NCBI GenBank assembly: GCA_013697635.1
Contig: JACCWM010000208.1
Span: 1-48,460 of the forward strand
Length of the DNA: 48,460 nucleotides
Origin: Lujinxingiaceae bacterium
GTDB taxonomy: Bacteria; Myxococcota_A; Bradymonadia; Bradymonadales; Bradymonadaceae
Direction: 5' to 3'
The position numbers and the translations under genes are program-made. Numbering within the stretch: position 1 is the first letter of the stretch; the number at the start of each line of letters is the position of its first letter. Below, one piece after another: positions 27,942 through 46,448 of this stretch. The notes below the pieces were generated by a model. The model made no database searches and had not been told where the DNA came from. It saw nothing but the letters and a program-made list of their open reading frames with translations.

Positions 27942-28062
27942 ATATGTGTAATTTAACTAACATATTGAAATTATTGACCTTTTGACCTATTGCTGGGTCG
28001 TTCGGGCTCAGGCACGTGCCTGTCACCGAAACAATCCGTGCTCTTCCCCGCCTTGTCGGGGA
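27942..28062. promoter_or_regulatory. AT-rich regulatory region with three symmetric elements before the CAP-domain gene
   Basis: This stretch between divergent genes is much more AT-rich than its surroundings at 27942-27990. It holds an inverted repeat ATATGT/ACATAT (27942-27947, 27960-27965), a direct repeat TTGACC (27974-27979, 27982-27987), a perfect 14-bp palindrome CAGGCACGTGCCTG (28009-28022), and a hairpin TCCCCG/CGGGGA (28045-28050, 28057-28062) about 27 bp before the ATG at 28089. I cannot assign a -10 box with confidence. The palindrome could be an operator or a member of a REP-like repeat family. Confidence 0.45.
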
Positions 28063-28088
28063 GTGGATCAACCCATCAAGGGGTATCT

Positions 28089-29153
28089 ATGCAATTGCAA
28101 TTACGCTATGTGCTCGCGCTCTTCCTACTTTCATCCAGCCTTGTCCTCGCTTGTGGCGGCCCTGAGACGGCCGGTGACGCAAGCCTTGACGGCGTGATCG
28201 TCGACCTCAACGAGAGCGAGGCGCCCGGCGCGCAGAGTGAATCAGACAGCAGCTGCCCGACCTGCGAGGCCTGCACGACCAATGACGACTGCGGCCAGGG
28301 CGGCCTTTGCGCCACGCTTTCCGATGGGCGCGCCGTGTGCACGAGTCCTTGCGACGACGACACCGACTGCAATGGCGAGGCAACTTGCGTGGCCGCGCGC
28401 TCGAGCGACGGCGCCAAGCGCTACGGTCTTTGCCTCAGCGACGATACTGCAAACGAAGTCTGCCCTGAAAATTGGAGCTGCACCGACGAGGAGCCGCTCG
28501 AAGAGGAGCCCGTCGAGGAGGAGCCCGTCGAAGAGGAGCCCGTCGAGGAGGAGCCCATCGAGGAGGAGCCCATCGTCGAGGAGCCTGTCGAGGAGGAGCC
28601 CATCGTCGAGGAACCGGTCGAAGAAAAACCGATTGAGCCGCCACCGGTGCAGCCGCCGCCTGTGTCCAGCAACGATCCCGCCAACAATCTGTGCGACAAT
28701 CCCCAAGGCGTCTGCCGCTACTGTGGCCCGCCAACCGGGGCCGTCACGAGCTGCCCGAGCTCCGACAACAGCGTCAACTGCCAGGTGCTTCGCCTGGTCA
28801 ACCAGGAGCGCGCGCGCGTCGGCCTGGGCCAGCTCACCTACAACGCTGAGCTGGCTAAATCCGCCCAAAAGCACGCCATGGACATGAGCACCTGCGACTA
28901 CTTCAGTCACTACTCGCTCGACGGCACGTCCTTCTTTGAGCGCTGCGCCGAGGGCGGTTACACGGGGCGCTGTAGCGGCGAGAACATCGCCGGCGGCCAG
29001 CGCACAGCACAGCTTGTCTTCAATGCCTGGATGAACTCGCCAAGCCACAAGCGCAACATCCACGCCGCCCAGCACACCGAGCTCGGCGTGGGCTACTACA
29101 CCAACGGCGGCCACTATACGCGCTACTGGGTCCAACACTTCGGCAGGCGCTAA
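28089..29153 (+). CDS. CAP-domain (SCP/YkwD-like) lipoprotein
   Basis: This 354-residue protein has a clear lipobox (LVLAC, Cys22) and a Cys-rich segment (about 55-130; patterns such as CTTNDDCGQGGLC, seen in myxobacterial surface proteins). A Glu-Pro-rich spacer of EEEPVEE-type units (about 134-183) and a short Pro stretch lead to a C-terminal CAP domain (about 230-354). CAP signatures are NQERARVGLGQLTYNAEL, KHAMDMSTCDYFSHYSLDG, GENIAGGQ and WMNSPSHKRNIH, then the hydrophobic strand LGVGYY. The conserved His and Glu residues of the CAP cavity are present (HYS, GEN, SHKRN). It is probably displayed outside the cell on a stiff acidic stalk. The substrate or ligand is unknown. ATG 28089 follows AAGGGG, which favours it over an in-frame start at 27990. 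Confidence 0.87.
   Translation: MQLQLRYVLALFLLSSSLVLACGGPETAGDASLDGVIVDLNESEAPGAQSESDSSCPTCEACTTNDDCGQGGLCATLSDGRAVCTSPCDDDTDCNGEATCVAARSSDGAKRYGLCLSDDTANEVCPENWSCTDEEPLEEEPVEEEPVEEEPVEEEPIEEEPIVEEPVEEEPIVEEPVEEKPIEPPPVQPPPVSSNDPANNLCDNPQGVCRYCGPPTGAVTSCPSSDNSVNCQVLRLVNQERARVGLGQLTYNAELAKSAQKHAMDMSTCDYFSHYSLDGTSFFERCAEGGYTGRCSGENIAGGQRTAQLVFNAWMNSPSHKRNIHAAQHTELGVGYYTNGGHYTRYWVQHFGRR
28488..28637 (+). repeat. In-frame 15- and 18-bp tandem repeats encoding EEPVE/EEPIVE units
   Basis: Units of GAGGAGCCCGTCGAG type, with synonymous changes and Val/Ile exchange, recur nine times and encode a Glu-Pro spacer in the CAP lipoprotein. Near-identical neighbouring units suggest recent slippage or recombination expansion. 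Confidence 0.85.
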
Positions 29154-29845: not shown

Positions 29846-32152
29846 TCAGGTGCACCGCCCGCCAAAACACAGCAGGCCATCGCAGCACTCGGTGTTTAGG
29901 CTACAGCTCTCGTTGTAGATCTTGCACTGCGAGACCGGCTCGCCGCATACACCCGTGATCGAATTGCAGTAGTTCGAGCAGCAATCGGCGTTGGCGCCGC
30001 ACCCCTGACCGTTGGAGATGCAGGCGCGCACGCACTTGCCGCCATCGCAAATATCGCTGCAACACTGGGTATCGCTGCTGCAGGTATTGCCAACGGGCAG
30101 ACACTGCGAGCGGCAGGTTGAGCTGCCCGGATCGCAGAACCCTTCGCAGCATTGTGCGTCGTTGGCGCAGGTCGCCCCGGCGACCACGCATTGGGTGGGC
30201 TCGGAGCACTTCTTGTTGGTCGGGTCGCAGAAGTTCGAGCAGCAATCGGCGTTCACAGCGCAGGTGTTCGTATTGCTCACGCAGGTGACGCATTTCTTGG
30301 TCACCGAATCGCAGTCGCCCGAGCAGCAATCGCTGTTGCTCACGCAAGTAGCCGTCAGGCTCAGGCAACTCGCGCACTTGGCGCTCACCGGGTCACAGCG
30401 GTTGTTGCAGCAGTCGGCGTTGAGCGCACAGGCCTCGTCCACGATGTTGCACTGGTTAGGCTCGGTGCCGCAAACGCCCAACGAGTTGCAGTTTCCGCCG
30501 CAGCAATCGCCACTAAAGGTGCATTGCTCGCCGGTACGCACGCACGAAGACGAGTTGCAGGTGAGCTTGCCATCGACGCCTGGCACGCAAAGCCCGCTGC
30601 AGCACTGATCGCTGATCGCGCAGCTGTCGCCGTTGTCCACGCACTGGTCGAAGTCTCGGCCAAAGCAACGGCGCACGCCGCTCGCCGTATCGCGACAGGC
30701 CGCGTTACCGCCACAGCAATCATGGGTGCCGGTATAGGGGTTGCGCTTGTCACAGACCTCGCCGGCTTGCTTCGCGCCGTTTTGATTGCCGCAGCGCCCG
30801 ACATCCTGCAGGCTGCCGTCAGCATTGATGAAGAACTGGCAGGTCGCCTGGGCTTGATTGTTGTTGCATACGCCTGCCGCGCTGCAGCATTGGTCGTCGG
30901 AGCGACACAGCTCGGCGCGCGGGCGGCAGCCACCCAAATACTGGCAGGTGCGATAGCCGGTGCCATCACCCAGACAGGAGTACGAGCAGCAGTCGTTGAC
31001 GCTCGAGCACACCTCGCCGACCACGCGACAGCTGCTCACCGAGCCCGTCGTGCCCTCCAATTTGCGGCAGAAGCCGCTCTCGCACTGTGAGTTGCAGCAG
31101 TCGGCGTTGGCCAGGCAGACCTCACCAGAAGACTTGCACAGGCCGCCCGAGATGCAACGCTTCAGACCGTCGTCGCCAAAGAGCTTGCAGTTGTTCGAGG
31201 CGCACTCGCTGTCGCCGCCGCAAATCGTGCCGGCGACCTTCTTCTGCGGCCCGGCCTGGCAGACGCCGCCCGTGCACTTGTTAGAGCAGCACTCCATGTT
31301 GTCGGTGCAGCTCTGGCTCGCCGAGCGGCACACGTCGTAGGTGTCGCAGGTCCCCTCGTCGCAAAAGAGCGAGCAGCACTGCGAGGACGACGCGCAGCCC
31401 TGGCCGGCGCCCTGACAGCCGCCGGTTCCGCCCAGACACGCCAAGGTGGCGAGATCACAGCGCCCAGAGCAGCAAGTCGAGCTGCTCGAGCAGGCCTGCC
31501 CCGTCGCATCGCAGCTTCCGTAGGAGAGCGAGCAGACGTTGTCGACATTGCAGACCCCCGCGCAGCAATCCAGGCTGTCGGCGCAGCCTTGGCCGCTGCC
31601 CTGACAGCTCGGACCGGTGTCAACACCGGTATCGATGGCCACGTCCTCGTCCGGCATGGTGTCGTGGACATCGGGCGTATCGACGCCGATCGTATCCGGC
31701 AGAGCGCCAACATCATTGCCGCCCGAATCGACGGGATCGATGGTGTCGCCCGGATCGGAGGTGTCATCGCCGCTGCCGGAATCATTGCCGCTCGAGGTAT
31801 CGCCGGCGTTGCCGGTGTCGCCCACGGAGGTTTCTTGGCCAGCGTCGCCGCTATCGGGGCTCGTGGCGTCGCCGCTATCCGGGCTCGTGGCGTCGCCACT
31901 GTCCGGGCTCGCAGCATCGGCGTCGGACGGGCTGGCATCGTTCGCCACATCGGGCAAGCGCCCAACGTCGGTGCCCGTATCTGGATTGGTCGTCACGTCG
32001 ATGCCCAGGTCGCGGCCAATGTCCTCCTCGACCTTGGTATCACCTGCTGGCCGCTTACTGGCCTCATCGTTACAATCGCAGCCGCCGAAGAAAACCAGCA
32101 CCAAGATCAAGACAACATAGAGAACAAATGACCGTTTGAGTCGCGCAGACAT
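29846..32152 (-). CDS. Lipoprotein with 17 double-cysteine repeats
   Basis: This protein of about 768 residues has a lipobox (FFGGC, Cys25) and a long Asp/Ser/Gly/Pro linker (about 30-200) that includes three units of SPDSGDA. About 560 residues of tandem disulfide-rich modules follow. Seventeen CC pairs occur, each in a pattern like C-x(4-6)-C-x(3-5)-D-C-C-x(2-4)-C, as in ADCCNSQC, SDCCSGDC, ADCCSNYC. The pattern resembles knottin or Dickkopf-type modules and is typical of large myxobacterial surface proteins of unknown role. The ATG at 32152 is chosen; an ATG three codons upstream is equally possible. A promoter with symmetric sites lies at 32280-32321. The protein should be strongly disulfide-stabilised, which implies oxidative folding in the periplasm. 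Confidence 0.85.
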   Translation of the reverse strand: MSARLKRSFVLYVVLILVLVFFGGCDCNDEASKRPAGDTKVEEDIGRDLGIDVTTNPDTGTDVGRLPDVANDASPSDADAASPDSGDATSPDSGDATSPDSGDAGQETSVGDTGNAGDTSSGNDSGSGDDTSDPGDTIDPVDSGGNDVGALPDTIGVDTPDVHDTMPDEDVAIDTGVDTGPSCQGSGQGCADSLDCCAGVCNVDNVCSLSYGSCDATGQACSSSSTCCSGRCDLATLACLGGTGGCQGAGQGCASSSQCCSLFCDEGTCDTYDVCRSASQSCTDNMECCSNKCTGGVCQAGPQKKVAGTICGGDSECASNNCKLFGDDGLKRCISGGLCKSSGEVCLANADCCNSQCESGFCRKLEGTTGSVSSCRVVGEVCSSVNDCCSYSCLGDGTGYRTCQYLGGCRPRAELCRSDDQCCSAAGVCNNNQAQATCQFFINADGSLQDVGRCGNQNGAKQAGEVCDKRNPYTGTHDCCGGNAACRDTASGVRRCFGRDFDQCVDNGDSCAISDQCCSGLCVPGVDGKLTCNSSSCVRTGEQCTFSGDCCGGNCNSLGVCGTEPNQCNIVDEACALNADCCNNRCDPVSAKCASCLSLTATCVSNSDCCSGDCDSVTKKCVTCVSNTNTCAVNADCCSNFCDPTNKKCSEPTQCVVAGATCANDAQCCEGFCDPGSSTCRSQCLPVGNTCSSDTQCCSDICDGGKCVRACISNGQGCGANADCCSNYCNSITGVCGEPVSQCKIYNESCSLNTECCDGLLCFGGRCT

Positions 32153-32279
32153 GAGAATCATCCGGGGTGAGCAAAAATGAAGGTTTCACCGAAGAGTCAA
32201 CATCCTCGGGTTTACGTTGGCCTCTGGCCTCAGATGAGTCTGAAAATCAAATCGTGGGGTGTGAGCTTGCGCCAAACTC

Positions 32280-34568: not shown

Positions 34569-37124
34569 TCAGTCAAACGCCACGACTTTGTCTTCGCCGT
34601 GGCGGCTGCTCAAGCTCGTGACACGCTCGAGCAAACGTTGTCGCTGCTGCCAGAACACGTCGAGACGAACCTTCTCGTTGGCGCTCGCCTGCGGGAACAA
34701 TATCGCGTCGACGAGCGGCCGACGCATCAATTCCAATGAGCTCAAAGTCGACGCGCTAAAACGCGTGACCCACTCAAAGCGCGTCTGCACGCGCTGCATC
34801 GGTTGAAACTGAAAACCCGCTCCATTATCGATCGAGACGAACTCACCGTTGGCAAAGTGGTTGTTTACGCCGTAGAAATCCTCGACCAGGCTGAAGCGAT
34901 CGTGGTTGTTCGTCAGATAGTCGAAGACCAGCAACGACGAGATTTGGCGCGCCATCGACGCTGTGTCGGCCTCGGCGCGCTCGCGCATGATCCCGTTGTA
35001 GAGTTGGCCGTTGCGATAGATCCGAAGCGCGCGGATCGACTGTTCGAGAGGCTGCTCGAGCAGCGTTTTGTCGGCATCGACATCGAGCCAGGGCTGCCAG
35101 ATCTCGTGGTACTCGATCGGCCAGTGCACATAGCGCACAACCCACTCCTTGAGCGTGCCGTAGAGATAGTCGGCCACGACACCGTCCGGGCCCGGCTCGC
35201 GCACCCAGATCAAATCGCCGAAGCGCTCGGCGTAGCGGCGTTGGTTGTCGGTATCGACGCGTGCATAGAGCGCGTCAAAGTCGGCACGACTGATGCGCGC
35301 CGGCCGGTTTTGCGGCACCTTGAAGTGGCAGACCATGATCTCGCACAGATAGTAGGCCGCGATCTCTGCGCGCCACCAGTCCTCCCAGTCGCGCTGCGCC
35401 GGCTTGAAGGCGTAGACGTTCTGGCCGCCGCGCGTCAGCCGCAACGAAATCGAGCGGCCGCCGCCCAGCGCGCGCAGCTCATCGACCATCTCGTCGACGC
35501 CGAGGGTGACCACCTGGTAGCGAAGCGCCGGGTCTGCGCGCAGGCTCTGATCGAAGATCGCCTGTTTGTCGGCGCTCGGCCCGCTGCGCCCGAACTCCTC
35601 GATGACGATCTCTCGCGCGCGCCTCGCTGATCCCTGATCCACCAAGCCCTGGGCAATCTGCATCGGCGAGACACGCGTCGAGGCGGAGACGGCCTCGGAG
35701 GCCACGGCGATCGCCGACCACACCGCGCGCAGCTCGGCCATGCTCGCCGGCGGTGGCTCGTTGGCCAGCGGCTCGACGACGGCCACGGGCCGATCGCTCT
35801 CCAGCAACGCCACCGCGCGCTCAGCGGCCAGATGCGCACGCACCGCCAGGGCGCTCAGCGCCGCGAGCGCGACGAGCAGGCCGACCACCACCAACACCCG
35901 CGCCGTGCTCGCCCGCGTGGGCGCATCCGCCGGCACGACAGTCGCTGGCGCCACAGGCTCAGGCGCGCTTGCAATCGCAGCGGCTTTCGGCGCTGGCGCC
36001 TTGACCCCATGCGCCCTGACCGGCGTCGAAACGCGCGCTCGCCGCTGCTTCGGTACACTCCGCGCGCTCGGCGCCTCGGCCGGCGCCGGGATCGCCACCT
36101 TGGAGAGCACATCGACGAGGCTTGCCGCGATCGCATGGCGCACGCGCTCGAAGATCGGATGCTCATCGATCGGAGTCCACGGTCCGTCCGCCTCGGCGAT
36201 CTCGTCTGCGACGACCCAGATCCCGGCCCGAAACAGCGCCACCAGCCCCGCATAGTCGATCGAGTCGTAGATCACCTCGCCAGCGCGAATTCGATACTTG
36301 CCCGCCCTGGCCACCGTCTCGCTGGCCGCTGGGCTCGTCGGCAACGGCGCAACCACCGGCGCCGGCGCAATTGCTGCTGGCGGCAGCGGCGGCGGCAGGG
36401 AAATCACCGTCTCCCGGGTCGCCTCCTCCGCCGCGTCAACAGGCACAGGCGTCGCCACTTTCTTTCGCGCCGCCGCAGGAGCAGGCAGGCGCCCGCTGTC
36501 GGCAGGCTCGAGCACGTCGATGACGCCCTCGACCAGATCGTCGAGCACCTCGTCGACGTCAAAGGAGATCGGCGCAGGCAACGGCAGCGCATCGGGCGCT
36601 GGCCCACGCGGGCGTTTGGTCTGCAGTTGTTTGAGCAGCGCCGTGGCCAGCGGCCGAACGTCATCGGGCTTATCGGTCTCCGGCAGCCGCGCTGTGGCCC
36701 GCGGACCGAAAACGCCCAGGTTCTTGATCGCCGGGCTGAGCGCCGCGTCCTCGGCCGCCGCCACGGGCCGAAACCGATCCTGCAAGGGCGCCGCAGCCTG
36801 CGCGGGCGAAGCCACCTCGGGCACGACCCGTTGGCTGCGATTGAACACCGTGTCATGGCTGATCCGGGCCCAGCCCCGCTCTTCGTTCGAAGACGAGGGC
36901 AACGGCGACGACGCGCTCGCCACCGGAATCGACGTCTGGCATCCCGGGCAGGGCACCGAAGACAGCGCCACGCCCTTGCCGCGCGGCGTCAGCCGGAATT
37001 GGGCCTGACACCCCGGACACCGCAACACCACGGCCTGGGGAACCTGCTCGGACACGAAGGACGACTCACTTGCCTTGCGATGATCAATGGATTCGCCTGA
37101 AACCAAATCCGACGCCAGCTTCAA
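34569..37124 (-). CDS. Zinc-ribbon, single-pass membrane protein with Fam20C/Four-jointed-like kinase domain
   Basis: This protein has up to 851 residues. CPGCQ and CPGCQ (Cys 36, 39, 59, 62) form an MJ0042-type zinc ribbon. A disordered Pro/Ala-rich stretch contains a GYF_2-like element (277-325, YRIRAGEVIYDSIDYAG). One transmembrane helix (409-430) follows a basic, Pro-rich segment, so the C-terminal 420 residues should lie in the periplasm. That part resembles secreted kinases of the Fam20C/Four-jointed type: VYAFKP (Lys574), an acidic helix (AEIAAYYL, Glu587), FDYLTNNHDR (734-743, catalytic Asp) and VSIDNGAGF (763-771, metal-binding Asp766). A distant PI3/PI4-kinase-like fold is the alternative. 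The upstream boundary uses a TTG at 37124 and is uncertain; a start nearer the zinc ribbon is possible. The DUF3137 gene is 60 bp upstream on the same strand. Confidence 0.72.
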   Translation of the reverse strand: MKLASDLVSGESIDHRKASESSFVSEQVPQAVVLRCPGCQAQFRLTPRGKGVALSSVPCPGCQTSIPVASASSPLPSSSNEERGWARISHDTVFNRSQRVVPEVASPAQAAAPLQDRFRPVAAAEDAALSPAIKNLGVFGPRATARLPETDKPDDVRPLATALLKQLQTKRPRGPAPDALPLPAPISFDVDEVLDDLVEGVIDVLEPADSGRLPAPAAARKKVATPVPVDAAEEATRETVISLPPPLPPAAIAPAPVVAPLPTSPAASETVARAGKYRIRAGEVIYDSIDYAGLVALFRAGIWVVADEIAEADGPWTPIDEHPIFERVRHAIAASLVDVLSKVAIPAPAEAPSARSVPKQRRARVSTPVRAHGVKAPAPKAAAIASAPEPVAPATVVPADAPTRASTARVLVVVGLLVALAALSALAVRAHLAAERAVALLESDRPVAVVEPLANEPPPASMAELRAVWSAIAVASEAVSASTRVSPMQIAQGLVDQGSARRAREIVIEEFGRSGPSADKQAIFDQSLRADPALRYQVVTLGVDEMVDELRALGGGRSISLRLTRGGQNVYAFKPAQRDWEDWWRAEIAAYYLCEIMVCHFKVPQNRPARISRADFDALYARVDTDNQRRYAERFGDLIWVREPGPDGVVADYLYGTLKEWVVRYVHWPIEYHEIWQPWLDVDADKTLLEQPLEQSIRALRIYRNGQLYNGIMRERAEADTASMARQISSLLVFDYLTNNHDRFSLVEDFYGVNNHFANGEFVSIDNGAGFQFQPMQRVQTRFEWVTRFSASTLSSLELMRRPLVDAILFPQASANEKVRLDVFWQQRQRLLERVTSLSSRHGEDKVVAFD

Positions 37125-37184: not shown

Positions 37185-38291
37185 TCAAAACGCGCCAGGA
37201 GGAGTCGCCAGCGCGTTGACGTTCAACTCGTCGACCACCCCGAGCGCAAATTGCAGATCCTCGAAGAACACCTCGATATGCGCACTCTGGGTAAAGGGGC
37301 GAAACGGATCCGGCTCGAAGAGATCTTGATGATAGCGCCGCGCAAAGTAGAACTTCGATCCCACAAACGAGATATGAACCGCATTGTCGCCCGAGGTGCC
37401 CTCCAGCTCGTCGACGGCCGCGGCGATCGCGCTCGTGCGCTCTTTGGGCGCCTGGCCACGACGAAATTGCAACACCCGCTCAACCAGCCCCGGAGTCAGC
37501 ACGAGCAGCGCCTCGCTCTCGCGCGTGCTGTAGATCTGAAACTGGGCGTCGAACTCCGGGATCCCCAGCAATACCTCGACCAGGGGCTGATGAACCGAGA
37601 GTCGCGCCAGCCAGGGCGCAAACATCGCTTGCGTAAGCTGCGCCCGTGTCGTCGGTAAACCGTCTCCGATCGGCGCGCGCCGCGGCAACAGGATCGTAAA
37701 CCCTTGCAGCGGCCGATGAAAATCGGCCACAAAGTACAAGCCCTTGTGAATCAGGACCGTCTGCGCGCTGGTGATGTTGCCATTCTTTCTGTTTGGGGTC
37801 TGCACCACATTGCTCGCTTTGAGCTCGCACACTTCAAAGCGCGTCTGGCCAATGCGCCCGCGAATCAGATCCTCGCCCTGGTAATCACTGGGCACTATCT
37901 GAAAGATCCCGCTCCTGTTGAAGTCCTCGATCGCGATCCGGCCGTTGGGCTGGTAGACCAGACTCGGATCGATGAACTGGACCAGCGGCGAGATCACCTC
38001 GCGTTTGAAATCATCCCGAAAACTGCCGCCAAAAACGGTATTCTTGGCCGTGGCCACCCCGTAGTAAGCCAGGAAAGCGAAGACGAAGGGAAAAAAACAC
38101 GAGCAACCACTGGAGGTCCATATGAACATCAAGACGATGCTCACCAGCGACAGCAACAGAGCGCCGCCGATGATCGCTGCCTTGATCAAGTTGTAGCGGG
38201 CCACCTGCTCCAGGCGCCGCTGCTCGAGCGTGGCAAGCGGGGCGGCCAGGCGTCGCTCGATGAACTCGTGCAGATCTTGGGTGGATCGCAT
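37185..38291 (-). CDS. DUF3137-family membrane protein
   Basis: This 368-residue protein has a helical, basic N-terminal part, two close transmembrane segments (about 38-60 and 62-80; LLSLVSIVLMFIW and FFPFVFAFLAYYGVA) and a cytoplasmic region of about 280 residues. The conserved DUF3137 blocks are visible: FKREVISPLVQFIDPSLVY, then FNRSGIF, the block YQGEDLIRGRIGQTRFEVCEL, and FHRPLQGFTILLPRR further on. The family has no known biochemical function; it occurs in diverse bacteria as a probable membrane-anchored sensor or scaffold. The ATG at 38291 has AGAGG upstream and is preferred over an earlier in-frame start. It lies immediately upstream of the zinc-ribbon/kinase-like gene on the same strand, so the two could act together. 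Confidence 0.82.
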   Translation of the reverse strand: MRSTQDLHEFIERRLAAPLATLEQRRLEQVARYNLIKAAIIGGALLLSLVSIVLMFIWTSSGCSCFFPFVFAFLAYYGVATAKNTVFGGSFRDDFKREVISPLVQFIDPSLVYQPNGRIAIEDFNRSGIFQIVPSDYQGEDLIRGRIGQTRFEVCELKASNVVQTPNRKNGNITSAQTVLIHKGLYFVADFHRPLQGFTILLPRRAPIGDGLPTTRAQLTQAMFAPWLARLSVHQPLVEVLLGIPEFDAQFQIYSTRESEALLVLTPGLVERVLQFRRGQAPKERTSAIAAAVDELEGTSGDNAVHISFVGSKFYFARRYHQDLFEPDPFRPFTQSAHIEVFFEDLQFALGVVDELNVNALATPPGAF

Positions 38292-38411
38292 CAACCGCCT
38301 CTCGATGAGCGCAACCGTGAATTTTCTTTGTAATACCAAGCGCTTTGTGGTGATCTTCGCGCACTCGCAGCCGCTGTATTATGGCAACACCTTAGCCCAA
38401 GAGCATCGCAC

Positions 38412-40130
38412 ATGAAACAAGCCTTCGTCCTGCTCGTCATAATTTTGCTGGCCGGCGCGATCGGCTGCTCGCCGGCCTCGTCAAACCGCACGCCGACAGG
38501 CGACGCCGACGGCAGCGTCGAGCACGACGCGCTCGACGCCGCCGTCGAACACGACGCGCACGACGCGCACGAGCTCCAAGACGCCGATACAAGCCCCGAG
38601 GACGCCGCCCTCAGCGCGACGATCACCGCGCGCCTGGTCGCGGTCGACTGGGGTTTGGGCGCCAGCGTCGAAGATCCCGCGACTCAGATCGTCTTTCAGG
38701 CCGACGCCAGCGGGCGATTTCGCGCACGCTTCACCTGGCCGCCCGGCGTGCACCGGCTCGTGCTCAGCGTCGAGGAAGAGGTCTACGGCCTCCAAGGCGG
38801 CCTGATTGAGGGTCTGGCCCGCGACTCGACGCCGATGTGGCCGGGCACCGAGCAGCGCGCTCGAAGCGAGTCCGTCGCGATCTTTAGCGCGACCAGCGAG
38901 CAGGTCGAGCTCTCGACCAACCTTCAAAACCTGACGATTGTGCGGCTCCACACGGCCGAATCGGCCCGGCTCGACGCCCTTCCCGGCTCGGCCAACGTCG
39001 GCGCGCTCTTCGACACCGCCCTCAGCGCGCTGGCCACACAGGGCCAGGATCCATACCAGGTCGTCGTCACACTGATGCACGGCCTCTTCGAGGCGGGCGC
39101 CGCACCTTTGACCACCGAGCGCGGCACCTTCTTCATCGCGCCGGGCAGCGACGAGGAGGCCGCCGTCGAGGTGCGTGGCAGCTTCAGCGACTGGCAGCAA
39201 AACGATCAAACCCGCCTGGTCAAAATCTTAGGCCGGCTCTGGGGCCGCTACATACCCCTTGGCGATGAGCACCATCAGTACAAGATCGTCTTCAACGACG
39301 GCGCCGCCTGGTTCACCGACCTCTCCAACCGCCACATCGTCTGGGACGGCATTAACCCCAACACCATCGGCGCCTTCAACTCGGTCGCCAACCCGGCCAG
39401 CCGCGCTCAGAGTGTGGGCCGCACCGTCTGGCTTCGCAGCGTTCACAGCCCTGAGCTTGGCAACCAGCGCGACGTCTACGTGCACCTGCCACCCGACTAC
39501 GACCGAGCGCCCACCAGGCGCTATCCCGTGCTCTACGTACACGACGGCAACGAGAGCATCGTGCGCTCGCAGTTTCACGAGGTGGCCGACGCCTGGGCCA
39601 CCACCGATGCCACGCGCGCGATTATCCTGGTCTTTGTCGCCCTGCCCTCCCAGGATCTGCGCATGGCCGAGTACACTGTCGCCAGCAACGGCGCGCGCGG
39701 CAGCGACCATGCGCGCTTTCTCAACGACACGCTCGTTCCGCTGATCGACACCAACTTTCGCACGCGCACCGACCGAGGCGCGCGCGGACTGGTCGGCGCA
39801 AGCCTCGGTGGCCTGATCTCGTTTTGGACGGCCGCCCAGCACCCCGAAAGTTTTGGCTTCACGGCCGGAATGTCCTCCTCGTTCTTCTGGCACGACGAGA
39901 TCATGCGCCAGACCATCACAGAGCTCGGCTGCCAAAATGTGCGCTACTACCTCGACAGCGGCTCGCCTGCCGACAACTCCGTGTCGACCGCCGCCATGCG
40001 CGACACTCTGGTCGCGCTCGACTGCCAGCACCGCTATGAGCGCGAAGACGGCGCCACCCATGACTGGCATTTTTGGAAAGGCCGCTTTCCCAATGTGCTC
40101 GAGAGCTTCAAATTGAGCTTCGCGCCCTGA
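38412..40130 (+). CDS. Lipoprotein esterase (Fes/enterochelin-esterase-like) with CBM48-like domain
   Basis: This 572-residue protein has a lipobox (AIGC, Cys19), then a His/Asp-rich linker (EHDALDAAVEHDAHDAHE). A beta-sandwich around residues 255-325, marked VEVRGSFSDWQ and HQYKIVFNDGAAWFTD, looks like the CBM48/Iso-amylase N-like module that often precedes such esterases. The alpha/beta-hydrolase domain (about 340-572) contains YPVLYVHDG, the nucleophile elbow GASLGGL (Ser), YYLDSGSPADNS (Asp) and THDWHFW (His), the putative-esterase family (PF00756) layout. It would hydrolyse an ester outside the cytoplasm; siderophore, acyl-sugar or feruloyl esters are all possible. A TATTAT element 30 bp before the ATG may be a -10 box but lacks a good -35. 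Confidence 0.87.
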   Translation: MKQAFVLLVIILLAGAIGCSPASSNRTPTGDADGSVEHDALDAAVEHDAHDAHELQDADTSPEDAALSATITARLVAVDWGLGASVEDPATQIVFQADASGRFRARFTWPPGVHRLVLSVEEEVYGLQGGLIEGLARDSTPMWPGTEQRARSESVAIFSATSEQVELSTNLQNLTIVRLHTAESARLDALPGSANVGALFDTALSALATQGQDPYQVVVTLMHGLFEAGAAPLTTERGTFFIAPGSDEEAAVEVRGSFSDWQQNDQTRLVKILGRLWGRYIPLGDEHHQYKIVFNDGAAWFTDLSNRHIVWDGINPNTIGAFNSVANPASRAQSVGRTVWLRSVHSPELGNQRDVYVHLPPDYDRAPTRRYPVLYVHDGNESIVRSQFHEVADAWATTDATRAIILVFVALPSQDLRMAEYTVASNGARGSDHARFLNDTLVPLIDTNFRTRTDRGARGLVGASLGGLISFWTAAQHPESFGFTAGMSSSFFWHDEIMRQTITELGCQNVRYYLDSGSPADNSVSTAAMRDTLVALDCQHRYEREDGATHDWHFWKGRFPNVLESFKLSFAP

Positions 40131-40208
40131 AGTGCTCGCGCTCACGGCGCCGATCGCCTACCCTTGACGTGGCAAGCTGCGAGCACCCCACTGTGGATTA
40201 AGGATGAG

Positions 40209-43200
40209 ATGATGGGATCGACGCACCATGCACGACGCATTGAGGCGCTCGAACTGCTTGTCCTTTGCACAACCATAGCCCTGCTCATTGGAGCCTGCTC
40301 CAAACCGGCCACCCCTGAGTTTGCCGAAGACACCACACCCTTTGTCGACGACCTCGAACCGGATTTTCATGGCCTGGTCATGCGTCTCGAGAGCGCCCAA
40401 CCCCTCGTAGACGACGCCTTGGGCTCGCGCGTCGTCGAGGGAGACCCGCTCAGCGACGGCGCAGCCGACGTATTGCTCGCTCGCCTGATCACCCGGCCAT
40501 CGACGCCGTCTGCAAGCCCATCGCTGGCCTCGGACCGCACGCAAGTGTCGCCGTGGGCATTCGACGACGACTCGCTCAAGGTGGCCGACACCCTGGCTGC
40601 GCCCGATTTTCGCACACGGCGTCGGGCAAGCTACATGCCGCTTACGATCACAAAATACGGCCCTGTGGCCACGGTCGAACCCAACACGAAGGTGCGCGTC
40701 GTTTTTTCATTGCCGCTCGCTCAGGCCGGTCGCGCCGACCCTCCGATAACGATCGAGCCCGAAGTCGCCGGAAAGTGGCACTGGGTCGATGTCCGCACCG
40801 TCGAATTCAAACCCGAGGGCGGCTATTTCCCACCGTCGACGCGCTTTGACGTGAGCGTGTCAACCGAGCTCGCCGCGCTCTCTGGGCTCACGTTCGAGGA
40901 GGACCATCGCTGGTCGTTCTCGACCTTCGAGGCGCGTATCATCGAGTACCACCCGCGCGGCAGGACTCGGCCTGAGCCGCTGCTCGTGCTCGCCTTCAAT
41001 ACCCTTGTCGAGGCCGACGATCTCATGCTCTCGCGGCTCACGATCACCTCGGACACCGGCGCTCCGCTGACCGCTCGACGCGCATCACCCGAGCGTCTTC
41101 GCGAGGATCCCAGCGCGCGCCAATTCATCAGAAACCTCGCACCGGGTACATGGATCGCGATCGAGCCCGACGGCCGCCTCGCCGGCAACAGCGCGGCCAG
41201 CGTCTACTTTCACCCCGATCTCTTCAACCCCACTGCGACCACGGCCCGACCCTCCTCCTTTTTCTTCAGGACCGCCCCGGCCTTTGAATTTCTCGATGCC
41301 CAGTGCGGCGATCGCGAAGACGCGAGCTGCCAGGCCATTGGTTTTCCAAGTGACTGGACGAGCTACGCCTACCAATTGAGATTCTCCACCCCTATCGACC
41401 CGGAGCACTTCGACCCAACAAGCGTTGTCATCGAGCCACCCATTGCCGGATCGAGCGTGCAGATCGTCGACGGCCTCTTACATGTCATCGACATCAGCCT
41501 GGCCCAGGGCCGCCACACGATCACGGTGCCCGCTACACTGCAAGACATATACGGCCAGGCTCTTGGCAAGGCGCTCACCCACGACTTCGAGCTCTACGCT
41601 CACCCCCTCGAGCTTCTCGCGCCGACCGACGCCATTGTGACCTTGAATCCCAACGAGCCACGCAGCCTGCCGATCTGGACGGCGGGGCTCTCGTCGGTAG
41701 GCGTAAGCTTTGAAAAAGTCGCGCCCGCCGATCTGCGCGCCACGGTCAAGCCCCTGCGCGATAACCGCGTGACCAGCATAAAGACCAATGCCTGGGACGG
41801 CGCCCTCACCCGCGTCGAGCTCGACCTTGGTGAGTTCATCAACGAGAACAGCCGCCATGGACTCTTGACCATCGATCCACGCACGGTCCTCGACGAGCGA
41901 CGGTATCCGCCAGAGGCCTTCCAGACCTGGCTTCGCACGGCGCCCTATGTGCGCATCGCCGTGCAATTTACCCACATCGGCCTTGACGCCTTCACCGATC
42001 CCGCCAGCGAGACGACCTATGTCTGGGCAACCTCGCTCGTCGACAACAAGCCCCTCGCAGGCGTCGAGCTCGTCTGGCGCGAGGTCACCGTCGGCACCAC
42101 CGACGCCCACGGATACGCCCGCTTGCCCGGGCTGAACCGCCTCGAGGGCACCTCGAGCCTGCTGACCGGGCGCCTGGTCGATGACACCGCCGTGCTCGAT
42201 CTGGCGGGCCTCAATCTTGGCAAGGTCAGACAGCCCAAAGCCGCCCCCGAGTTTGCCTGGCACATCTTCGATGATCGCCAGAGCTATCGCCCCGGCGAGC
42301 ACGTTCACCTCAAAGGATGGCTTCGACGCTTGAGCGGCACCGATCGCCGCCGCGCAACGCTGGCCACCGACATCGAGGCCGTCGACATCGTCGTCGCCGA
42401 CGCCCAAGCGACCGAACTTGGCCGCGCCCGCGTCGCGCTCAACGATCTGGGAGGCTTCGACCACAGCTTTGCGCTGCCCGTGAGCGCACAACTTGGCCAG
42501 GCCAGAGTCAGCTTCCAGGCCGTCGAAAGCCTCGACAGCCCTGTACACCGCCACAGCTTTCGCATCGACGAGTTTCGCCGCCCCGAGTTCGAGGTCACGG
42601 CCCGCCCGAGCAGCGGCCACTACGTGGTCAACGATACGGCCCGCCTGGAGTTGAGCGCGCACTACTTCACCGGCGGCGGCCTGCTCGGCGCGCCGGTCAC
42701 CTGGCAAGTCTCCCAACAACCCGCGCGCTTTGTCCCCCCCAACCACGCCGACTTTCACTTCGGCCGCCTGCCCGACAACGACGACAGCAACGACGACAGC
42801 AACGACGACACGACACCTGCCACCATACCTTTGCCCCTCACGCTCGAGTCCAAGACCGACACCCAGGGCAACCACGTCGCCGCGCTCCACCTCGACGCCA
42901 TTTATCCGCGCCACCCGGTGCTGGTCACGGCCAGCCCCACGGTCACGGACGTCAATCGCCAGATGCGTCCGGCCGAGTTCACCATGCTCGTTCACCCGGC
43001 GGCCAATCACATCGGCCTTCGCGCCCGGCGCGGATTTCTGCGCGTCGGCGAGAAGATCGAGGTCGACGCGGTCGTCACCGACGTCCACGGCTCACGCCAG
43101 GCTGGGCGCGCGATCACCATGCGCCTGGTCGGCCCGATCGGCGCAAAGGACCAACCCGCGGCCAACGCCACGCGCTGCGAGACACGCTCGCTCGCCATCG

Positions 43201-46200
43201 AACCGGTGAGCTGCACCTTCGAGCCACGCCAGGGCGGCACCTACCACCTCGTCGCCGAGGTCGAGGATATCCTTGGCCGGCTCAGCCAGAGCACGACCAC
43301 GCTCGAGGTCGTCGCCACCGCGGCCGACGCGCCCACCCAAAGCGCTCCCAATCGCCTCAATCTGCTCGCTCAGCGCGCCCATTACAGCCCCGGCGACACC
43401 GCCCAGATCCTCGTGCTAGCCGGCGTCCAAAGCGCCCACGGCGTCGCCACCGTGGGCAGCGGCGAGCTGATCGAAACCCATCATTTCCGCATCGAAGATG
43501 GCCACCACATTCTGGAGTTTCCGCTCAGCGATCGCCACGCCCCCAACACCCGTGTCCACGTCACGATCGCCGCCTCCTCACCACGACCGATCGCCGCGAC
43601 GTCCTCGATCGAGCTCGAGGTGAGCGCCCGCGAGCATGCCCTCGAGCTCACCCTCACCCCGGCCGAAACCTCGCTTATGCCGGCCGCCTCGACACGCGTC
43701 GAGCTGCTCGTTCGCGACAGCGCTGGGCGTGCCGTGCCCAATGCCGATGTCGCCCTGTGGGTCGTCGACGAAGCCGTGCTTGCCTTGACCAACTACGAAT
43801 TGAGCCACCCCCACGAGGTCTTCTTCGCGCGCCAGCCCTCCTTTGCGCTCGACTCGGCCCATCTGCGAAACCAGGTTTTCTCGCCAGCAAACGACGATCT
43901 GCACGCCCTGCTGCTCGCGCGCCTTCGCGGCGATCGCACCCAGTTCAAAATCGAGGGCCGCGACAGAAAGCGCGTCAGCGGCCCGCTCACCTACAGCCTT
44001 CCAGACACGGCCGCCAAAGCTTTGCCCGCCAAGAAACCGGACCCGATGGCTGAGCGATTTTCGCGTGCATCCAGGCGAGCTGACGACGTCTCCAACCAGA
44101 TCACCTTCGGTGACGACAAGCCGGCCCCCAAGGAATCAAAAATTTTGAAGAAGCTGTTCGGCGGCCGAACCGGCGAACGGTTTTCCAAACCCCAAGACGC
44201 CGTATACAGCCTGGTCGATATTGATGAACCCCGCCCTCAAGCAACTCCCGTGTTCCCGATCCTGAAGGCCTCGGGCGCCCATTTGCCAAACACGCGACCG
44301 AGTCCAACGCCGACCCCACCCGTCATCGAGGAGTTTGCGGCCGCGCTCGACCCGATCGCACTTCGCCAGGACTTTGGCGCACTCGTCGCCTTCTCACCCT
44401 CGCTTCGCACCGACGAGCACGGGCGCACCCACCTCGACGTCACGCTTCCCGACAGCATCACACGCTACCGCGTGATGGCCGTCGCAGCCGCCGGCGAGAC
44501 ACGTTTTGGCAAGGCGGAATCCACGATCACAGCGCGCCTCGAGCTGATGGTTCGCCCCGCCCTGCCCCGCTTCCTGACCGCCGGCGACCGCTTCGAGCTG
44601 CCGATCGTCGTGCACAATCAAAGCGATCGTGAACACCAGGTCGACGTCGCCGTTCGTGTTCAAAACCTTGTACTCAGCGGCCCTCACGGCCGCCGCGTCA
44701 GCGTGCCGGCCGGCGACCGCGTTGAAGTGCGCTTCTCGGCTCGCGCCGACCAGAGCGGCCCGGCCCGCGTCGATGCCGTTGCCGCCATCGGCTCGCTCTC
44801 GGACGCCGCCTCGACACCGCTCACCGTCTATGCCCAGCGCGACGCACCCGAGGTCGTCTACGGCCAGCTCGACGACGCCCCGACGGCTGTGCTCATCGAG
44901 CTACCGCGCTCGAGCGATGGCGAGGTGCTCGCTGGCGCCATCGAACTGTCCGCCTCCTCGAGCGTGATGCAAGACCTCTCCGACGCCGTGCTCTACCTGA
45001 TCAAATACCGCTACGATTGCACCGAACAAATCGCCTCGCGCCTGCTCGCCATCACGGCCGCGCGCGAGCTGATCGATCCCAAGCTTCGCCACGAGGGCCT
45101 CGATCTCGACGAGATCGTCGCCCGCGACATCGCCACACTGAGCTTGCGCCAACAGCCACGCGGTGACTTCGGCCTGTGGCGAAAACATGGCCCTCCCTCG
45201 CCGTTCTCCAGCATTCATGCGGTCCATGCGTTGTTCATGGCCAAAGAGAATGGCTACGAGGTGTCGACCGAAGTGCTCTTGGGCGGGCAAGACTACGTCA
45301 ACCTCGTCGCCGATTATCGAGACTTGGCCGAACGCCACCAGAGCAGCACGGCGCGCGCCTATGCGCTCTATGTGCTCGACGTCATGGGCATGCCCAAAGC
45401 CCAGCCCGCACTGGAGATGCTCTCGACCACGCGCTACGGAATCTTCAACCGCGTGCTGCCCGTCGACAGCCTGGCCTGGCTATTTATCGTGCTCTCCAAC
45501 TCCCCGGAGCACCGCACCAATCCGGCCACCATTGCCCTTCGAGACCACCTGCTTACCCGCATCGTGCGCGATGGCCAAAGCGCCCACATCAACGAACCGA
45601 TCGGCCACGACAACCACTTCGCCCTTCGCTCACGCGGGCGCGCGCCGGCCGTGGTGCTCCAAGCGCTGATGGCCAGCGAGCCCACCAGCAAGCTCATCGA
45701 GCCCCTCGTGCACGGCCTGCTCGCCAGCCGCGAGAACGGCCGCTGGGACAACACCCAGGAGAACGCTTTCGCCGTGCTCGCCCTCTCGCGCTACTTTCGC
45801 CAATTCGAACACTCCACTGGCCGCATCGATCTGCAGGCCTGGGCCGGCCACACCCCGATAGCCGAGCACGGCTTCGTCGGCCTGACCACCCGAGCGCTCC
45901 CGATCTTCACCCTGCCCCTTGACGACGAAGCCCTCGCCAGCTCAGCGCGCGTCGTGCTCCAAAAGCGCGGCCGCGGCCGCCTCTACTACCGCCTGGCCAT
46001 GCACCACGCCCCCGAAGACCACAAGATCGCCTCCGAGAACAACGGCATCTCCGTGATCCGCCACTTTGAGCCACTTGACGCGCTCACCGACGTCACCCGC
46101 GACGAGGACGGCACCTGGCGCTTTCGCGCCGGCGCCCGCGTGCGCGTCAATCTCACCATAATCGCCTCCGCCATGCTCGACCACGTCGCCCTGGCAGACG

Positions 46201-46448
46201 CCCTGCCCGCCGGCCTCGAGATCGTCCACACGGCTGCGCACAACCACCCCTGGTTCGACCACGAACAGCTCTCCGAGCGCGGCGCCCAGGTCTTCGCCAC
46301 CGCGCTCAAGATCGGCCCCCACAACTACAGCTACATCACACGCGCCACGACCCCTGGACACTTCTTTGCCGCCCCGGCCCACGCCGAGCAGATGTACAAC
46401 CGCGACCACAATGGCCACAGCGCCACCGACGTGGTGATTGTGTATTGA
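40209..46448 (+). CDS. Bacterial alpha-2-macroglobulin lipoprotein with thioester
   Basis: This 2079-residue protease-trap protein has a lipobox LIGAC (Cys30). It has multiple macroglobulin domains, including the MG signature YRPGEHVHLKGWLR (about 695-708). A low-complexity insertion (about 1270-1390; Lys/Pro-rich) probably contains the bait region. DYRVMA-like strands (ITRYRVMAVAAAGETRFG) are the typical ANA/MG10 block, and the thioester CTEQ occurs in YRYDCTEQIASR (Cys about 1604) within the alpha-helical TED domain. Upon bait cleavage the thioester would covalently capture a protease in the periplasm. At about 2080 residues it is longer than the usual 1500-1650 of YfhM-type proteins. The family's usual partner PbpC is absent nearby. 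AAGGATGAG precedes two adjacent ATGs; the first is taken. A repeated GACGACAGCAAC tract occurs at about 42778-42806 (Asp-Asp-Ser-Asn units). Confidence 0.93.
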   Translation: MMGSTHHARRIEALELLVLCTTIALLIGACSKPATPEFAEDTTPFVDDLEPDFHGLVMRLESAQPLVDDALGSRVVEGDPLSDGAADVLLARLITRPSTPSASPSLASDRTQVSPWAFDDDSLKVADTLAAPDFRTRRRASYMPLTITKYGPVATVEPNTKVRVVFSLPLAQAGRADPPITIEPEVAGKWHWVDVRTVEFKPEGGYFPPSTRFDVSVSTELAALSGLTFEEDHRWSFSTFEARIIEYHPRGRTRPEPLLVLAFNTLVEADDLMLSRLTITSDTGAPLTARRASPERLREDPSARQFIRNLAPGTWIAIEPDGRLAGNSAASVYFHPDLFNPTATTARPSSFFFRTAPAFEFLDAQCGDREDASCQAIGFPSDWTSYAYQLRFSTPIDPEHFDPTSVVIEPPIAGSSVQIVDGLLHVIDISLAQGRHTITVPATLQDIYGQALGKALTHDFELYAHPLELLAPTDAIVTLNPNEPRSLPIWTAGLSSVGVSFEKVAPADLRATVKPLRDNRVTSIKTNAWDGALTRVELDLGEFINENSRHGLLTIDPRTVLDERRYPPEAFQTWLRTAPYVRIAVQFTHIGLDAFTDPASETTYVWATSLVDNKPLAGVELVWREVTVGTTDAHGYARLPGLNRLEGTSSLLTGRLVDDTAVLDLAGLNLGKVRQPKAAPEFAWHIFDDRQSYRPGEHVHLKGWLRRLSGTDRRRATLATDIEAVDIVVADAQATELGRARVALNDLGGFDHSFALPVSAQLGQARVSFQAVESLDSPVHRHSFRIDEFRRPEFEVTARPSSGHYVVNDTARLELSAHYFTGGGLLGAPVTWQVSQQPARFVPPNHADFHFGRLPDNDDSNDDSNDDTTPATIPLPLTLESKTDTQGNHVAALHLDAIYPRHPVLVTASPTVTDVNRQMRPAEFTMLVHPAANHIGLRARRGFLRVGEKIEVDAVVTDVHGSRQAGRAITMRLVGPIGAKDQPAANATRCETRSLAIEPVSCTFEPRQGGTYHLVAEVEDILGRLSQSTTTLEVVATAADAPTQSAPNRLNLLAQRAHYSPGDTAQILVLAGVQSAHGVATVGSGELIETHHFRIEDGHHILEFPLSDRHAPNTRVHVTIAASSPRPIAATSSIELEVSAREHALELTLTPAETSLMPAASTRVELLVRDSAGRAVPNADVALWVVDEAVLALTNYELSHPHEVFFARQPSFALDSAHLRNQVFSPANDDLHALLLARLRGDRTQFKIEGRDRKRVSGPLTYSLPDTAAKALPAKKPDPMAERFSRASRRADDVSNQITFGDDKPAPKESKILKKLFGGRTGERFSKPQDAVYSLVDIDEPRPQATPVFPILKASGAHLPNTRPSPTPTPPVIEEFAAALDPIALRQDFGALVAFSPSLRTDEHGRTHLDVTLPDSITRYRVMAVAAAGETRFGKAESTITARLELMVRPALPRFLTAGDRFELPIVVHNQSDREHQVDVAVRVQNLVLSGPHGRRVSVPAGDRVEVRFSARADQSGPARVDAVAAIGSLSDAASTPLTVYAQRDAPEVVYGQLDDAPTAVLIELPRSSDGEVLAGAIELSASSSVMQDLSDAVLYLIKYRYDCTEQIASRLLAITAARELIDPKLRHEGLDLDEIVARDIATLSLRQQPRGDFGLWRKHGPPSPFSSIHAVHALFMAKENGYEVSTEVLLGGQDYVNLVADYRDLAERHQSSTARAYALYVLDVMGMPKAQPALEMLSTTRYGIFNRVLPVDSLAWLFIVLSNSPEHRTNPATIALRDHLLTRIVRDGQSAHINEPIGHDNHFALRSRGRAPAVVLQALMASEPTSKLIEPLVHGLLASRENGRWDNTQENAFAVLALSRYFRQFEHSTGRIDLQAWAGHTPIAEHGFVGLTTRALPIFTLPLDDEALASSARVVLQKRGRGRLYYRLAMHHAPEDHKIASENNGISVIRHFEPLDALTDVTRDEDGTWRFRAGARVRVNLTIIASAMLDHVALADALPAGLEIVHTAAHNHPWFDHEQLSERGAQVFATALKIGPHNYSYITRATTPGHFFAAPAHAEQMYNRDHNGHSATDVVIVY

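Follow-up and report, generated by a model that had tools for sequence, protein, structure and literature searches.

Does an open reading frame of a Lujinxingiaceae bacterium encode a kinase that faces the periplasm while tied to a zinc ribbon in the cytoplasm, and what would such an enzyme use as a donor where ATP is scarce? The ORF occupies positions 34569-37124 (minus strand, 851 amino acids counted from TTG) of the window, the whole stretch of 48,460 nucleotides that was analyzed. By comparative evidence the ORF is authentic and conserved and does not represent a chance reading frame, because homologs (orthologs and paralogs together) are found in 34 of 58 related genomes, with identities of at most 51% across the kinase part. 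Translation probably begins at the GTG at 37055 (V24), which would give a protein of approximately 828 amino acids, because VSEQVPQAVVLRCPGC aligns with Met in the paralogs (MGEHAPEAVEVKCPGC in the source genome's L021). All residues are numbered here with the TTG codon as residue 1. The predicted features are the following:

34569..37124, minus strand: bitopic membrane protein, whole ORF from TTG, 851 aa
37053..37055, minus strand: likely start codon GTG (V24), inferred from its alignment with Met in the paralogs L021 and L024
36927..37028, minus strand: MJ0042-type zinc ribbon, residues 33-66 (C36, C39, C59, C62), from sub-threshold NCBIfam TIGR02098 and Pfam Zn_ribbon_4 matches and the CxxC pairs
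36090..36302, minus strand: GYF-like domain, residues 275-345, weak individual scores
35841..35897, minus strand: single transmembrane helix, residues 410-428
35535..35741, minus strand: helical TPR-like segment, residues 462-530, from helices of the AF2 model and weak Pfam TPR matches in six of 31 relatives
34572..35522, minus strand: Fam20-like kinase domain, residues 535-851, predicted extracytoplasmic
35451..35468, minus strand: LGGGRS glycine-rich loop, residues 553-558
35403..35405, minus strand: K574, nucleotide-binding lysine
35364..35366, minus strand: E587, helix C glutamate
35328..35345, minus strand: predicted disulfide between C594 and C599, neither of which occurs without the other
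34896..34907, minus strand: catalytic loop N740-H-D742-R743
34824..34829, minus strand: D766-N767 of the metal-binding DNG motif

The first-pass annotation of this DNA had read a kinase from the motifs AFKP (with K574), E587, FDYLTNNHDR (with D742) and SIDNGAGF (with D766), preceded by one transmembrane helix. The motifs lie at those positions, and the helix was found at residues 410-428.

The C-terminal domain matches the Pfam Fam20C model with 12.7 bits for the full protein and 14.6 bits for the domain, and does not reach the gathering score of 26.8. A search of the PDB with the single sequence returned only chance matches. Pfam Fam20C matches at E ≤ 1 occur in 26 of 31 relatives, and a profile of these 31 relatives identifies FAM20C as the top PDB match (E=2e-7), together with zebrafish Fam20C (1.9e-5) and C. 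elegans Fam20 (2.2e-4), the first protein outside Fam20 being PI4K2A at E 0.52. The profile alignment extends over the C-terminal helix of Fam20C. The AlphaFold2 model of residues 432-851, for which 54 sequences served as input, has a pLDDT of 94.1 and a pTM of 0.88. With this model Foldseek places Fam20 proteins at ranks 1-18 (best E 1.5e-8), followed by PI4KIIalpha (4.1e-5). Scores from VIA-align are Z 17.3-18.1 against Fam20 (264-284 residues, rmsd 3.9-4.8 Å, with the rows inside the Fam20 group tied), compared with at most 15.8 for PI4K-II, 14.9 for CtkA, 12.0 for HipT and 11.8 for CotH.

Structure prediction had been suggested as a check on the kinase fold, and the model is indeed a kinase fold with Fam20 proteins as its nearest PDB relatives. 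The Fam20C-like reading likewise holds, as Fam20 kinases rank first among PDB entries in the profile search, in Foldseek and in VIA-align. The same description had also named Four-jointed; no Fj structure is among the PDB matches listed, in searches that were not directed at Fj. A predicted kinase fold and kinship to Fam20 are thus established computationally, from sequence profiles and a model.

It is possible that the domain is a glycan or lipid kinase instead of a protein kinase, resembling Fam20B, which acts on xylose, or a type II PI4-kinase. PI4K-II provides the second-best fold match (Z 15.8), the Pfam PI3_PI4_kinase model matches weakly in five of the 31 family members, and the sugar kinase Fam20B has been reported to be older than Fam20C in animals (PMC5865150). 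However, Fam20 exceeds PI4K in all three comparisons, although this does not speak against Fam20B, itself a Fam20 protein. We consider this reading somewhat unlikely; it overlaps our main proposal, which allows for either a protein or a glycan substrate.

Both among the 31 relatives and among 54 aligned relatives, the motif residues vary little or not at all. In an alignment of 91 distinct kinase-domain sequences, K574, E587, N740, D742, R743, D766 and N767 are kept in every member of the ortholog group that covers those positions. The Fam20 test residues, namely the catalytic Lys, the Asp of N-x-DR and the Asp of DNG, are present in the protein. However, an equivalent of Fam20 Glu306, the role of which is described in PMC5865150, is not conserved: the corresponding position, which precedes the helix C Glu by five residues, is D582 here and Asn or Ser in relatives. 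The four conserved disulfides of Fam20 (PMC5865150) also have no counterpart, and the bacterial family shows a single conserved Cys pair, C594/C599. Both cysteines occur in the main clade, both are substituted in L007, and both are missing in the outgroup (L081-L098) of the 91-sequence alignment. Because the Pfam score, the Glu306 equivalent and the four disulfides all fail, we describe the protein as a bacterial variant: it is related to Fam20 and Fam20-like in its working, with catalysis itself inferred, but it is not a strict Fam20 member. Three lipoprotein homologs (L072, L073 and L074) have Gly in place of the helix C Glu and keep the remaining catalytic residues.

A second, degraded copy, which was beyond the reach of the first-pass annotation, accompanies the kinase. 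Each of the 21 genomes of the family that includes the source genome encodes one copy whose kinase residues are intact, alongside one or more whose active site is degraded, and exactly such a pair is found in 20 of them. Two copies are present in 20 of the 21 genomes, and G004 has four. The three pseudokinase copies of G004 (L039, L040 and L117) are all fast evolving. The kinase of G002 appears to be split across two contigs, giving three matches, and the intact copies of G002 and G017 are only partly assembled, with the visible portions intact. The degraded copy is usually longer (mostly 880-1390 aa). It retains the membrane helix and, in the majority of genomes, a zinc ribbon and GYF-like domain as well. 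The LGGG loop is missing from degraded copies, along with at least one of the residues K, E, D742 and D766. The mildest case, L024, lacks only the loop and the Glu, while one pseudokinase subclade has D742 replaced by Glu and D766 by His. The paralog in the source genome, L021 (G000:C32:53541-57000, 1174 aa, with its pseudokinase domain at 53541-54611), reads NNWNRFN, in which NR replaces DR, and ENGATF, in which ENG replaces DNG. It is likely the pseudokinase partner of the kinase studied here, the pairing being inferred.

After removal of long branches the pseudokinases form a clade of 17 rows (support 100/99), and in a wider quick tree 22 of 25 group together (support 89). Given a single clade and a pair in every genome, we infer one old duplication of which both copies were retained. 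Fam20A is a pseudokinase that activates Fam20C by dimerization (PMC7948968, PMC5865150). Judged from the trees, the bacterial pairing apparently arose separately from vertebrate Fam20C/Fam20A, because the pseudokinases fall inside the bacterial family. The kinase gene does not lie next to the pseudokinase gene. The evolutionary distances of the two are correlated (r=0.86), which is no evidence of contact because vertical descent alone predicts it. Conservation of a paired pseudokinase is a computational result, whereas its functional pairing with the kinase is inferred.

The degraded copies bear on two other readings. One is a catalytically silent receptor, in which the kinase fold would detect nucleotides, glycans or phosphate in the periplasm and pass the signal to the zinc ribbon and GYF domain on the inner side. 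ATP is sparse outside the cell, and the retention of paralogs that have lost catalytic residues implies that the fold is useful without catalysis. However, a protein that only binds would have no need of catalytic residues, yet these are intact at every readable position in the ortholog group, and several stand-alone lipoproteins without any cytoplasmic part also keep them. We consider a silent receptor unlikely. The other reading, transfer of a group other than phosphate, such as AMP, has precedents in the different chemistry of some pseudokinase-fold enzymes (cited in PMC7948968), and the altered acidic residues of the partner in the subclade described above would be compatible with it. The active copy, however, retains the standard phosphotransfer residues, and this possibility seems to us quite improbable.

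A hydrophobic segment of membrane-spanning strength is found in 50 of 55 long members, none of which has a second such segment. In family members with the helix, the 30 residues that precede it contain 3.6 Lys and Arg on average, compared with 1.8 in the sequence that follows, and by the positive-inside count 34 proteins favor an N terminus inside while eight favor the opposite. This bias is a property of the family, because the studied protein itself has three before and three after. In many homologs the kinase domain stands alone. In the main clade, each of the 18 homologs that lack a mid-protein anchor (L025/L053, L028, L029, L031-L036, L058, L067, L068, L071-L075, L080) has a hydrophobic signal that ends in a lipobox Cys, compared with a rate of 0.16% for shuffled N termini. 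The lipobox rule is a simple custom filter and not SignalP, and the topology counts are not corrected for shared ancestry. Several outgroup members also have lipobox or Sec-type signals, as judged by eye. One Polyangiaceae lipoprotein (L058:3753-5993) consists of an FGE-sulfatase (SUMF1-like) domain fused to the same kinase domain.

An extracytoplasmic, presumably periplasmic, kinase domain is strongly supported because of the lipoprotein signals in unanchored homologs, the keeping or loss of C594 and C599 together, and the positive-inside bias. The support consists of prediction and the export signals of homologs, with no localization data. The first-pass annotation had likewise put the kinase outside the cytoplasm, and this homology-based evidence agrees with it in the absence of topology measurements. 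The reverse arrangement, with a cytoplasmic kinase domain and the N terminus outside, would suit the normal requirement of kinases for cytoplasmic ATP, but it is very improbable given the lipoprotein signals in 18 of 18 unanchored main-clade homologs, the positive-inside bias, the paired cysteines and the zinc ribbon at the opposite end of the protein.

The N-terminal part had been described as a zinc ribbon followed by a GYF_2-like region. The zinc ribbon has both CxxC knuckles but scores 18.3 bits with NCBIfam TIGR02098 against a cut-off of 20.9, and Pfam Zn_ribbon_4 is also sub-threshold in the studied protein. CxxC pairs are present in most family members, and some members have no detectable zinc ribbon or GYF-like domain. 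The zinc ribbon alone found no relative among solved structures. Pfam GYF_2 does not match the studied protein and gives only sub-threshold matches in two of 16 relatives, and a sequence profile of the GYF-like region found no solved relative. A conserved pattern in this region closes with W-x-P-x-x-x-H-P, and the model of the region (pLDDT 79.5) returns a top PDB list composed mostly of GYF domains, all of them weak (best E 0.53, best GYF Z 5.3). Both assignments remain plausible: the knuckles and the GYF-dominated model matches give weak support, and the curated thresholds were missed.

The model also matches weakly the GYF domain of GltJ, 7z3c (Z 4.5, 67 residues, rmsd 5.2 Å). Because GltJ is listed as a membrane protein and as an effector of the GTPase MglA (PMC3169522, PMC12288465), a docking role for the cytoplasmic part is a reasonable guess by analogy, not a finding. 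A search with the Arf family gave only two large ORFs and is uninformative for MglA.

We propose an inner-membrane protein in which a cytoplasmic zinc ribbon and GYF-like adaptor would be joined by one crossing helix to a periplasmic part, a short helical repeat and then the Fam20-type kinase domain. The kinase would transfer phosphate to an envelope protein or glycan, with traces of ATP in the periplasm, or a different nucleotide, as the donor. The separately encoded pseudokinase paralog (G000:C32), which has the same architecture, would bind or activate the kinase in the manner of Fam20A with Fam20C, and the cytoplasmic domains would dock the pair to an internal protein. We favor this proposal as a whole with only somewhat more than even confidence, since catalysis, donor, substrate, pairing and the role of the cytoplasmic part, including any sensing by the zinc ribbon, are all inferred. 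More tentatively, a bacterial extracytoplasmic Fam20-like kinase and an obligate pseudokinase may predate the radiation of the family, with each of the two proteins crossing the membrane and an adaptor in the cytoplasm thereby controlling phosphotransfer in the periplasm; we give this broader claim somewhat less than even weight.

The scarcity of ATP outside the cytoplasm, which the first-pass annotation had pointed out, remains a puzzle. However, periplasmic ATP is reported to be low and not absent: a review describes a measurable pool in the periplasm of E. coli, while no inner-membrane ATP translocase or exporter is known in bacteria (PMC7432876). A search for the ATP/ADP translocase PF03219 gave no match, but the control was likewise unmatched and the search is uninformative. 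Because cultured Bradymonadales are predators (PMC7460792), prey lysis could serve as an extra source of ATP, which is speculation.

Of 284 Myxococcota genomes sampled, 81 contain the family. Genomes of Bradymonadales type (Lujinxingia, Bradymonadaceae) are among its carriers, as are other Myxococcota, and some of the MAGs that carry it are labeled Proteobacteria. The scan of the genome collection relied on one conserved pattern and does not show absence elsewhere, and a PF06702 search of the source genome was uninformative. The only recurring neighbors of the kinase are upp and an SDR gene, in two loci. A DUF3137 gene upstream on the same strand (37185-38339, 60 bp gap) was considered as an operon partner and rejected, because only five of 20 other family genomes have matches, all weak, and in the loci checked these lie away from the kinase. 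Elsewhere in the window are a 771-aa Cys-rich lipoprotein-like protein (29846-32161) that contains many repeats and matches no Pfam family, a secreted CAP-domain protein with a long VEEEP repeat tract (27990-29153), and a bacterial alpha-2-macroglobulin of 2094 aa (40164-46448) that adjoins a 572-aa esterase-domain protein (38412-40130).

A kinome survey terms the FAM20 cluster eukaryotic or Metazoa specific (PMC9758233), and the text of a paper on Fam20 structure and evolution does not mention bacteria (PMC5865150). Our literature search, the coverage of which was incomplete, found no link between Fam20C and Myxococcota beyond passing mentions. Bacteria may own a kinase and helper pair that works outside the cell. 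An outward-facing bacterial relative of Fam20 with a conserved pseudokinase raises two questions that can be tested in cultured bacteria: whether regulated phosphorylation takes place in the periplasm, and with what donor, and how kinase-pseudokinase pairs originate. Because the family is large, it may represent a general system of envelope modification.

Several known systems invite comparison. CotH of the Bacillus spore coat is a bacterial atypical kinase reported to be Fam20C-like (PMC12189002). It is farther in structure from the domain studied here than Fam20 is (Z 11.8 versus 18.1), and its cellular setting differs. Type II PI4-kinases and CtkA have the broad fold in common (Z at most 15.8 and 14.9, respectively), but their sequence and fold scores are below those of Fam20 and their settings also differ. 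GltJ (AgmX) of Myxococcus xanthus, in which we take a zinc ribbon to precede the GYF domain, resembles the cytoplasmic part through its solved GYF domain. Unlike the protein studied here, it is not described with a kinase domain in PMC3169522 or PMC12288465. The nearest match by both fold and profile is the animal Golgi casein kinase Fam20C with its pseudokinase activator Fam20A. The DNG motif, the N-x-DR loop, an extracytoplasmic location (predicted here) and the combination of a kinase with a pseudokinase paralog are common to both. In contrast to Fam20C/Fam20A, the bacterial protein has neither the Glu306 equivalent nor the four disulfides, and it is tethered in the membrane to a zinc ribbon and GYF-like domain. 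Its pseudokinases, unlike Fam20A, form their own clade within the bacterial family.
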